A stretch of 64,000 nt of DNA from Lota lota. Taxonomy: Eukaryota; Chordata; Actinopteri; Gadiformes; Lotidae. This document shows positions 27,601-33,600 of this stretch, one piece after another. The position numbers were made by a program, and so were the translations under genes. A model generated the notes under the pieces. The model was not told the origin of the DNA. It made no database searches and worked only from the letters and a program-made list of their open reading frames with translations. How positions within the stretch are numbered: the first letter of the stretch is position 1; each line of letters opens with the position of its first letter. Location: positions 6,044,724 to 6,108,723 of the forward strand of contig JACYXH010000826.1 of NCBI GenBank assembly GCA_026745465.1, written 5' to 3'.

Positions 27601-30600
27601 ACACACACACACAGTGGATGTGTGTGTCTTTTGAAAAACAACTAGTGGCAGATCAGATAGGTGTTGACACACACACACACACATGCAGATGACACACAAA
27701 CACACATGCGCACACACACAAAGCAGTTCCCTCAACATCTACATAGATCACCAACACACATGAACCATACACACATTCATATTCGCAAAACAAAAAATAA
27801 CCTCACGTTTCTTTACACACCAAAGAAACAAACACGACACACACATTCTCTCTGTCTCTCGCTCAATCACTCACTCACTCAATCCCCCCCCCCACAGCTA
27901 AAGTCACGCCAGACTGTCAACCCCGTTGAGGAAGTGTGTGTTGGAGGTGTGTGTGTGTGTATGTGTGTGTCAGCTCACATCTGGTGCCGAGACAACACAT
28001 CTGGTTCCCCGCTCCTCGGAGGGTTGCAAAATAAACGACATCCAACCAGGAGTGGCACATCACGCCATTGTGACACGCCCGTGCGACGTAGCGTGGCAGT
28101 GTAGCTATTGTGGGTAAACACCCAGCCGTGCTGGTGGTGGTGGTTGTGGAGGTGGAGGAGCTGATATGTGGTGTGGTGGAAGATAGATAAGACGCTTCTC
28201 CTTTATTGATCCCAGAGGGGAAATCTCAGCTGTCAGAGGAGATAGAAAGCACAGGGCCAAGCAGAGAGAAATATGCTGCATAATATAATAGGGGATATAA
28301 CAAATATAGATATCTAGATATATACAAGTTGAAGTCACTATAGAAAGAATAAAACTGGAAACTTCTCAGTATTGTGAATAGAAAATAAAAAGTATACCTG
28401 TGCTTTGGTTCAAAGAACAAGTGGAGGGCTCTAGGGGCCGTGTTTGGATCCCTTTAATGCAGTGGTGAAGGGAAATCTTTTTCACATCGGTCACACTACT
28501 TGCTTGGCTGTCACCGAGACCAAATGAGAAGCAAAAACATCACTGTGAACTCCGAAAACTCTCTCACTGTGAACAATAATGGAAGTGCAGAGGGGGGTTG
28601 GCTTTGGGTGAATAGATGGATGGATGAAGGAATGCGTGGATGGATGATGTTCTATGGAGGTGATCAAGCAATGGGTGTTTTAAGGATGAGAGTGATGATT
28701 GATGGATGGATGGATAGAGTTCACATGCACACAACAAGCACTGTTTGCTTTTCTTCATACTGGATATAAGATAGCAGGATTTAAAGCTCTGTTAACCATA
28801 TTAACCACAGCTCTGTGTGGCAGAATGACGGCCCACTGGGCTGATTGTGTGTCTGCAAAGATCTTGACTGGCACTGCTTCTTCATAGACCCCATTTACAC
28901 AGCCACGCCCAAATTGAGAAGTATATCGATTTTTCCAGATGTACCGCCGCTGAGCTCTGTGTAACCCGACCCCCCTCTCTCACTCTCTCTCTCTGGAATA
29001 ACCCAGGTTCAAGCTGACCCAGATCACAGTGGACACGTCGGCCGGGCCCTACAAGAACCACACGGTGGTGTTCCTTGGCTCAGAGAACGGGCGCCTGCTG
29101 AAGATCCTGGCCAGCACCCAGGGCTCCAACGCCTCCTTCAGCACCGCCCTGCTGGAGGACATCGACGTCTACAACCCCGAGAGGTAACCGGAGCCCGTCG
29201 AGCGTTGCGTTTGCATGCGGCAGGGAAACACTGCTTTAAGAATCAATGGGAGGCGCACCGCTGCTCAAAAACAAACAAACGCAGAGTGAACGTGAGCGCA
29301 GACTCGCCACGTTCCCTCAGAAATGATGATGTAGTTCTTGGTACATTGATTGTTTTCTGACGTTGCCCTGTGGAGGGCTTGTAACGGCGAGTGCATACGA
29401 CACTGGTGGCGATGCGATGAGGCATTTTCAATTCACCTTCGCTCTCAATGGTTCTCTTTTAGAGTTCCTTGGTTCCAGGCGATTGTCGGTTTTGCCGTTT
29501 GAAGTTCTTTTGTTTGTGTTGTGGATCTGTCTTGGAACCCCTTTCTCTTGTGTTGTCTCAATGCCAACACAGCCATGTATACACAAAGATGCATAGACAG
29601 AGATATGAAACCACACAGATACACATACATTTACACATACTTACCACCATGTGTCTCTGTGTGTCTTTCTCTCGCTCTCTCCCTCTCTCTCTCTCTCTCT
29701 CTCTCTCTCTCTCTCTCTCTCTCTCTCTCTCTCTCTCTCTCTCTCTCTCACTCACTCACTCACTCACTCACTCACTCACTCACTCACTCACTCACTCACT
29801 CACTCACTCACATACACACACATACACCTCGCTGGTGTGTTGCGTTGTCACCCCGCGTGGCCCCTGTGCCGCTGGAGGGGATTGTGCTTCACTGTCGTTT
29901 AGTTTTCTCGACCACAGCCTGCAAAGTCTTATCTGCGTGAACTCATCCACCTCGGTTCAGGCAGAACAGTCTGCTTAACATATTGTCCTCCCACTCTGAT
30001 AGCCCGCCGCCGTGTTGATCCAGTTTAATATGATGTAACTCAACCAAGCAGATAAAACAGAACCACACTCAGCCTATACCACGGCCGTTTGTGAAGGTTT
30101 ATGTTGCTAGCTGTAACGTGTGGTGGTATGTGTCATGTGCTTTGTGTTGCTACCTGTAACATGTTTTAAGGTTACTGTGTTACTAGGTATAACGTGATGC
30201 TGGATGTAACTTGTTGCAGGTGGAAGATGCATTGTGTTGCAAGGCATAACATGATGCTAGGCGTAACATGTGATGTGTCGCTAGGTGTAACGTTTGCTAG
30301 GTGTAACGTGTTGCCAGGTCAAACATGTATTGTGTTACTAGGTGTAACATTTAGTTTGTTGCTAGAACATATTGCTAGGTGTAACACTTTGCTAGGTGTA
30401 ACGTTTTTTGCTAGGTGTATCGCTTGGCTAGATATAACGCTTAGCTAGGTGTAACGTGTGCATTGTTTGGTCACCAGTGTAACGCTTCGCTGGGTGTAAC
30501 GTGTTATTAGGTGTAGCATGTGTTGTGTTGCTGCGTGAAATGTGTTGCTAGGTGTAACGTGTCGCTAGGTGTGACATGTCTATGCTGTTGTCGCCAGGTG

Positions 30601-33600
30601 TAACGTGCGTGGGGAGGACCGGAGGGTACTGGGCCTGGAGTTGGACAGGGACAATCACGCCATGTTTGTGGCGTTCTCCAGCTGTGTCATCCGCGTACCC
30701 CTCAGCCGCTGCTCAGAGTACAGCACCTGCAAGACGTGAGTATTATCTGTAACATCACTGAGAAGTATTTCACAGAAACTGTACAGAACACGCAGCTAGC
30801 AGCCTCTTCCACACATAAGGTGAATATAGCCACTATGTCTTGCACTAACCAAAATAATGGAGGTGGATAGAAGGAAAATGGTTTGTTTTTATCAATGAAC
30901 ATCCAGGGATTGGGATTTTTAGAATCACTCCTTGTTTTTCAGACTATTTAAGTTAATGTGGGCTGTTGAAGTAGTCTTTGATATTTCTAAATAATATTTG
31001 ACAGTTGGTTCAGGTAGGCACTGATGACGGTACGTCAAATTCCTTAGTACTTTTTGGATGAAAGGTTGATTTCTCAAACAACAAATAATATGATTTGTTT
31101 ATATGGCCTCCCATGATTATTAGAAGTTTCCAACGTATAATTGTCCAAGACAAATATAATAACAATGAAATTGAAATTAAAACTGTGAACAGCTAATTAA
31201 GTTAACATTTGTAGCAAAGAGCAAAGCTCTTTGTCTCCCTAGCCTCGGTACAGTTTAAGCGATAGCTAATGGACTCACTCGCTGGCGTCATGTTCTATTT
31301 TTGGTACATTGAGGAATGTTCACCCCGCTCACCCCTTTTTCGGTCAAACCCTCATCGCCAAAAGCCCCCCCACCCCCCAACCCAATCTCAACGAAGAGAA
31401 CGGATTAATCATCCATCTCACAGGGGAATCTATACGCCCCCATCGCATGCTAAGCCCCCATTGTCAGGGCCTCCAGAACCACTCAACAGACTTTTACATG
31501 CAAATTGGAAGCAGCTGATTGGCTGAGAGCCAGCACTGGTGGCGCTCTTGTTTTCTCAAGTTGTCGGGCAGGGGGGGGGAGCGAGCAGTGGAGAGAGTAG
31601 GGGAGAGGGAGCAAGAGAGAACTGTGGTGAAATGTAAGACAGAGTAAGGTTTATGAGAAAACAACCCATAATACTTTATCATATTAACAATATTTTATCA
31701 CGTGTGGGTAAAGTCAGGGTTGGGGCCCACCTCATCCACGGATTAGGGGCCCTCGTCCTGGTTGAAGTGGTCCTCGTTTAGGAGGAGGTGGGGGGAGGGT
31801 CAGGTGTCAACCAGTGTATTTCCTCTCTTCTCCCCCTCAATCCTTCACAGTCCAAATGAGATCTGCCTTGTCCACCTCTCCAATCACTGCCTCCATTCCT
31901 TCATCCCTCTCTCTTTCGCTCTCTCGCTCTGTCTCTCAACAGCTCTCTCTCTCTCTCTCTCTCTCTCTCTCTCTCGCTCTCGCTCTCGCTCTCGCTCTCT
32001 CTCTCGCTCTCGCTCTCTCCCTCTCTCTCTTTCTGTTTCTCTCTCTCTCTTGCTCTCTCTCCCCATCTCCCTCTCTCTGTGTATCTGTTCTAACTCAAGC
32101 TCGCTCTCCCTACCCTAGCGTGCCCCTTTCAGAGGACCTTACTGTAGCCCCGGGGGTCACCAAGTCTGTGATTCATCTCAGACAACCCCCCACTCCCCTC
32201 CTTCTCTCTCCTCTGGCATGCTTCTCCCAGTAGACCTCATCGTATCCCCTTCTGTTCCCTGATACCAGACTACTGCAGGACGGACATAGGACCACTTTCA
32301 GCTCTCGACACGCTGAATACAACCTGTTACTACCAAATTGACCCATTACTCAAACCTCAGTTTTATTACAAAATGAGCAGAGAAATATTGACTCAAAACA
32401 TTGTGCCAGTCCAACTGTCTTCTTTGTGAGAAAATCTATTTGAAATGTGATTTTTCTAATTAAATAAAGCAGTTACAGGTGTGGGGTGATATTATCTCTA
32501 TTGGATTCAAAATACAAAATCCTTAAAGACAGTTTTACGGTTTCAGTTTACCGGTATTCAGTCACTGAATAGATAGATGCCACCATCCTACACACTGCAC
32601 ATTTAATTTATGTTGGTCATGTGTTAGTTACGTTGGTCATTCAAAGTGTACTGTTCTTTTCTGGATGATTTTCTCATTTACCTTGAATGTTTTTTTGCTT
32701 GTGCCTTATTCTGCTAGCGTAAGATCTCTAAATGGAACAGTAATTCAAAGTTGACTTGGCATATCGCTACTGTAGAAGTGACTTATGTCACCGAGAGGAT
32801 AGTGCTAGTCAGAGAACCCAGCATTAGTTAGACTCCCTTTAAATTTATTGGTGATTGTAACAAGACCCCGACATGAAACTGCACCGCCGTGGGAACCTCA
32901 GTGTTACTGGTAAAAGGTGAGACTTTACAAGTGGCACTTTTGAGAGTAGGGCGTTCTGTTTTTCAACATTGAGCACACACTGAGAACAGGATTTTACTTT
33001 TAGCCAAGCAGATTTTGTAATGAAAACGAGAGGCTGTTACATTTTGTTAACCAGCTAAGAAAAATACAAGGGCCAATTATTCAGTGCGGAGTACAATCAG
33101 CTACAACCGGAGCAACTGATGTTCTGTCCTAATGGTCGCTAGCTAAACGCGGTAGTGCCATCATCAGAATAAATGGCATGAGGCTGCCTACGCACAGACA
33201 ATTTCAAATAGCGTGCTGTGTGCTAAAATGGGGCTGCTTATTCAGCTTATTCATCGATTGTACAGTCTTTATTTTCATACATACATCTGTTTTCGTGAAA
33301 GGAACAAAACGTATCATCTTTGATATTAAAGAGTGTTGTGTGCCAGATTAAAGTTTTCCGCGTGCCAGATTTGGCCCTCGGGCTGCAATTTGAGGAACCT
33401 CAGCTGTAACTTCGAAGCAAAAGCTTATTTTATTTTTTTTACTTGAGGCACTGCTATCGATATAAGGTTTCAGAAAGCGCAGTGTTTTGCACGACTCTGT
33501 GGGAAGTGAGAATTTTGATGAACGCATTCAGGCGCCGAAAGAAGATATTTGTTAAGCCCGGCGCCCTCATCAACGAGGGGTTTCTTACCCACTTGGAATA

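Follow-up and report, generated by a model that had tools for sequence, protein, structure and literature searches.

The sequence analysed here is a 64 kb window (64,000 nt) of the Lota lota genome (contig JACYXH010000826.1, positions 6,044,724 to 6,108,723, forward strand). Its + strand carries a Sema6-type semaphorin gene, the exons of which align to solved Sema6D and Sema6A proteins. At the junction of intron 12 and exon 13 of this gene lies a tandem array (30104..30607, +) of units spaced about 17–29 nt apart, which occupies the end of intron 12 and extends 10 bases into exon 13. An earlier, preliminary description of the window had drawn attention to this array and is the source of the exon number. 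Exon 12 (29007..29183, +) ends at the donor AG|GTAACC, while exon 13 (30598..30735, +) runs from GTGTAACGTG to AAGAC|gtgagt. Exon 13 and its reading frame are backed by Sema6 homology, with a 16-residue stretch aligning with the Sema6D and Sema6A chains in the PDB. The loop following the exon 13 cysteine (30598-30620) has one residue less than in these chains.

A tandem array built from the exon 13 edge

Matches to TTGCTAGGTGTAACGTG with up to three mismatches were sought on both strands of the 64 kb, and all 15 fell within 30104-30607. Dinucleotide shuffles of the window gave a mean of 0.16 matches and at most two, confirming the proposal of the preliminary description that the array shares sequence with the edge of exon 13. 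Copies were counted with 17-18-mers; 24-mers miss the known array. When sites with at least 12 of 17 identities were accepted, 22 were found in the array, exon edge included, compared with five on the + strand and six on the − strand elsewhere. The figure of more than 20 repeats given earlier therefore holds only if degenerate units are counted, as 14 units with up to three mismatches lie upstream of the exon edge. The array limits also needed adjustment, with the first unit at 30104 rather than 30105 and the array running ten bases into the exon instead of stopping there. The last unit (30591..30607, +), TCGCCAG|GTGTAACGTG, is the genuine 3' splice site edge; this last close match consists of the acceptor together with ten exon bases. 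The array thus has the properties of a boundary minisatellite: its units are in tandem, the unit holds the AG and ten exon bases, and the genuine boundary is the terminal unit at 30591-30607.

The consensus of 21 upstream units was identical to the exon edge at all 10 exonic positions and at five of the seven intronic ones; at the two differing positions the exon edge has C and the array has T. This consensus omits three very degenerate places (30123, 30215 and 30359) and includes one unit read with a one-base gap. Mean pairwise identity between units was 0.73. Spacing varied, being mostly 17 or 24 nt, with 29 nt before the real edge. Homology of the real acceptor to the array extended from −34 to +9 (alignment to 30256-30293), which suggests that whole acceptors, and not AGs alone, were copied.

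Splice-site choice among the copies

The array places 24 AGs upstream of the real one, so the statement that the last AG must be picked out of many look-alikes is true as geometry. None of the 24 lies in frame without a stop intervening. The array therefore lacks the usable in-frame isoforms from upstream sites that define alternative tandem acceptors, and the suggestion that some units would add short in-frame peptides is not borne out. With an approximate scoring matrix the real acceptor scored 7.6, higher than any other of the 25 array AGs (upstream maximum 5.5), and ranked only fourth of 63 across the whole intron.

Motif and spacing point to a candidate branch point (TGAC) and an AG-free stretch of 29 nt ahead of the real acceptor (30562..30597, +), with the adenosine of the TNAY motif 23 nt from the AG. 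In units spaced 17 nt apart, the distance from TAAC to the following AG is only about 11 nt. AG-free runs of at least 29 nt also precede five upstream array AGs (30170, 30219, 30477, 30510 and 30551). The upstream unit nearest in layout to the real acceptor (30471..30486, +; TCACCAG|TGTAAC) has a 29 nt AG-free gap and a TNAY at 23 nt, and is in frame yet closed by a stop.

The splice edge in Sema6 paralogues

Homologues of exon 13 in the genome comprise the window gene, five clear Sema6-like paralogues (L014-L018) and two weak hits (L019 and L020, E 0.03 and 1.3) that were excluded as not clearly Sema6. Exon 13 of all five paralogues begins AG|G-TGY, and no unit matches were detected in any of them, compared with 15 in the window gene. 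Retention of AG|G-TGY in 5/5 array-free paralogues indicates that the splice edge and the cysteine codon predate the array; judged by this comparison, the AG|GTGY part of the edge is older than the array. Identity to the ten-base edge of the window gene was 8/10 for L016 and 6/10 for L015, L017 and L018, with L014 unscored. The preliminary description had left two alternatives, an edge copied upstream or an edge taken over by the array. The direction is settled for AG|GTGY only, because the remaining AACGTG varies among paralogues. A search for Sema6 DNA in other collections returned 12 pattern stretches in viral contigs and 75 in genome contigs, none of which was confirmed.

Edge arrays elsewhere in the genome

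The array had been taken for a one-off case; further edge arrays were found in a Sema6 paralogue and in myosin and kinase genes, and the window array belongs to a pattern that recurs across this genome. In the paralogue region (G000:C453:350001-450000, L003-L012; hereafter C453), the exon 10 acceptor carries an 11-copy array of a 39-bp unit (10 extra copies) that ends about 8 nt into exon 10, its units ending CTCTAG|GTGGTGTT, the start of that exon. C453 exon 13 is accompanied by seven extra copies of the exon end and donor. Units filling C453 introns 10 and 11 match the 3' ends of exons 10 and 11 of the window gene plus GT, suggesting that edge arrays also lie at these two donor ends; they are placed indirectly, because the exons themselves fall in unreadable stretches. 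Of the 65 kb that are readable in the C453 region, 64 % is tandem repeat (59 % with a period of at least 10), as against 9.5 % of the window. Among edges of the window gene placed on AG or GT, 1 of 17 was positive for an edge array. The acceptor of the PSI exon was misplaced and is excluded from the edge counts.

The C453 region also holds a 4.9-kb array of units resembling the end of exon 10 and a 5.6-kb array of 41-bp units. Coding homology of C453 exon 10 stops at TTTCTTAAG|GTCTGTC (L006, joined coordinate about 39909), where a GTCTGTCTGTCTGCCT array begins, and exon 10 of the window gene continues past this point. The break may represent a gained intron built of repeats.

Outside the Sema6 family, 30 of 177 myosin-head matches and 66 of 156 kinase matches were surveyed, the kinase slices consisting of an exon ±400 nt chosen by hand as exon-sized and stop-free. 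Six loci or slices contain unread N. Edge arrays were present at 5 of 96 exons (4 of 66 kinase slices and 1 of 30 myosin loci). The myosin case (L035) is at an acceptor: ahead of the exon DNSFEQLCIN..., which matches Pfam Myosin_head, GGTTAG|GACAACTCCTT recurs in five additional exact copies. The kinase cases are donor-edge arrays (L058, L060, L072 and L086); L072 has an 85-bp unit with more than 30 exon bases, and L086 has five copies of 65 bp at 99 % identity. Within this one genome, both boundary types therefore carry edge arrays: acceptors in the window gene, C453 exon 10 and L035, and donors in C453 exon 13, L058, L060, L072 and L086. Across these eight arrays, 1 of 70 duplicate splice sites was in frame and open, after removal of four distant weak matches to C453 exon 13 (11 reduced to 7), which argues against their use in isoform switching.

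The positions of array ends were compared for 90 exons (180 edges), the last six kinase slices lying outside this count. No exon centre lay in an array (0 of 90). Five near-ends fell in the zone 8–40 nt inside the exon (six were flagged and L066 was removed), 14 in the first 100 intron nt and seven beyond this, with none deeper in exons. Per-base rates were alike at about 8 in 10,000 per edge (5 in 180×33 nt for the edge and 14 in 180×101 nt for the intron).

Several candidates were rejected as edge arrays: L066, where the hidden Markov model match extends into the intron; L052 and L088, where arrays near the exon hold no exon bases; L067 and L087, where the windows fall outside the exon; and L115 and L116. 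In L066, L088 and L115 the arrays begin within a few tens of bases past the donor without exon bases and possibly form an intermediate class.

Origin of the array

The array is very probably a case of what has been termed a mirage: an ordinary minisatellite that grew from a founder straddling the exon 13 3' splice site and is tolerated since splicing hides the copies. The founder would have been a short stretch across the splice site, from about −34 or −7 to +10, duplicated by slippage or unequal exchange, with the copies then decaying by point mutation. Because it carried the AG and the first exon bases, every duplication would keep an intact acceptor at the exon and push spare copies into the intron, to be removed by splicing. 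Selection would eliminate founders within exons; edge-straddling founders would escape, one intact copy staying in the exon and the spare copies being spliced away, so that edge arrays could accumulate in a genome rich in tandem repeats. Both the duplication mechanism and its near-neutrality are what we infer from these patterns. The simplest account of the small, non-random counts does not require arrays to be drawn to splice sites in any special way. On a narrow balance we favour the broader proposition that a few per cent of exons in this genome have had an edge turned into an array of splice-site copies, with thousands of decoys beside real sites. If so, coding constraint would have a blind spot at exon edges, created by splicing; the genome would amount to a natural experiment on how splice sites are chosen and would keep in stock raw material from which new introns and exons could arise.

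Several points weigh against this interpretation. Use and correct splicing of the real exon 13 acceptor are deduced from the conserved protein, acceptors and branch points were scored with a simple, approximate matrix, and spacing cannot by itself single out the real acceptor, given the five upstream AGs with similar runs. Unit similarity was not correlated with how far units lie from the exon (Spearman −0.09, P=0.70, n=21), so that a gradient gives no direction of array growth. AACGTG, six of the ten exonic bases, differs among paralogues and may be either the founder of the array or a segment later homogenised or altered by it. The survey exons are non-random and few cases were counted; exon ends are placed only approximately, from the ends of the matches, and stops in 10 of the 30 myosin loci make the edges there approximate. 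Random intron windows fell inside arrays in 6.6 % of cases for kinase slices and 1.9 % for myosin loci, above or near the proportion of array-bearing edges (4 of 120 and 1 of 60, respectively), and edges are thus not favoured sites. All comparisons were confined to one assembly of one fish genome.

Among other explanations, the one that survives best, though unlikely, is that splicing itself promotes the birth of such arrays, with AGGT, R-loops or reverse splicing starting tandem duplication at splice sites more often than elsewhere. It fits the name mirage and conflicts with the neutral filter described above. C453 units carry AG|GT at exon edges, and four edge arrays, two observed directly and two deduced, lie in this single gene. 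Against this, edges were hit about as often per base as the adjacent intron, tandem repeats account for 64 % of the whole C453 region, and the L035 edge array is AG|GA rather than AG|GT.

Slightly less likely again is a takeover, in which an independent intronic minisatellite reached the exon, overwrote its first bases and moved the acceptor into the last unit. Of the residues C-N-V at the exon start, only C is common to four PDB Sema6 sequences, and the shorter fish loop and the AACGTG differences are likewise as a takeover would predict. However, AG|G-TGY predates the array, as the five array-free paralogues indicate, and a unit of unrelated origin could match it only by coincidence; the bases copied in the myosin and kinase genes lie in exons that match conserved protein domains.

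A functional role, in which look-alike acceptors tune inclusion of exon 13 or yield transcripts that are destroyed, appears improbable. The many AG|GT copies with TNAY motifs close by, together with the frameshift or stop that would follow from use of any upstream array AG, are compatible with such a decoy. The absence of the array from 5/5 paralogues, the degeneracy of its units and the higher score of the real site all argue against this role. Chance likeness of a minisatellite to the exon edge, for which the abundance of tandem repeats in the window might speak, is refuted by the placement of 15/15 close matches in the array and the recurrence of exact or near-exact longer copies at other edges.

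Relation to known boundary repeats

Mirages were described in amphioxus as minisatellite-like tandem repeats across exon/intron boundaries, with cases in Adh3, the globins BflGb6 and BflGb9, TnC and PGBD5 (PMC3087553, PMC3902484). In the portions of these papers used here, the repeats lie at 5' or 3' boundaries in units of about 10–160 bp, many with AG/GT; reverse transcription PCR suggests that regular splicing is undisturbed, and mirages are proposed as a source of new introns (PMC3087553, PMC3902484). The fish arrays are alike in spanning boundaries at either end and holding a splice signal plus exon bases. They differ in host and genes, being found in a fish and in Sema6, myosin and kinase genes, and in that a rate is available for them (5 of the 96 exons surveyed). 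For some amphioxus cases, splicing and length polymorphism are reported, whereas the fish arrays are known from the sequence of one assembly.

De Grassi and Ciccarelli (2009) described human internal tandem repeats at exon–intron boundaries in segmental duplications (PMC2812944). As far as the sections used here go, these share with the fish arrays minisatellite units at exon edges able to create or alter introns; the human repeats vary among recent paralogues and have transcript support, whereas the fish arrays were read from DNA alone (PMC2812944). Introns can also be gained when AGGT-bearing segments are duplicated in tandem, as reported for potato RdRp (PMC4974935). That process likewise involves tandem AG|GT copies, but the fish copies lie within an existing intron. 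In fish, the Atlantic cod genome is rich in tandem repeats, and the main text of its paper, as used here, has no word beginning 'exon' or 'splic' (PMC5241972); the seabream GH gene has minisatellites in introns 1 and 3, according to the part of that report used here (PMC3045353). No account of boundary-spanning arrays in fish was found in the literature searched, which omits most subscription journals. Such arrays are thus already known as a kind, while their presence in fish and their rate appear new.

If edge arrays touch even a few per cent of the exons of one vertebrate genome, they would furnish numerous natural experiments on spliceosomal choice among near-identical sites. They would also probably complicate gene annotation and the mapping of short RNA reads, and would provide starting points for the suggested path by which duplicated AG/GT units become new introns. 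Comparing array ends at the exon edge, in the nearby intron and in the exon interior makes the neutral explanation testable genome-wide.

Other features of the window

Two larger minisatellites are also present in the window, at 7833-8606 (37 bp unit) and 35504-36508 (unit of about 36 bp). Its + strand further contains two unbroken G runs, of 54 G at 24084-24137 and 57 G at 44013-44069.

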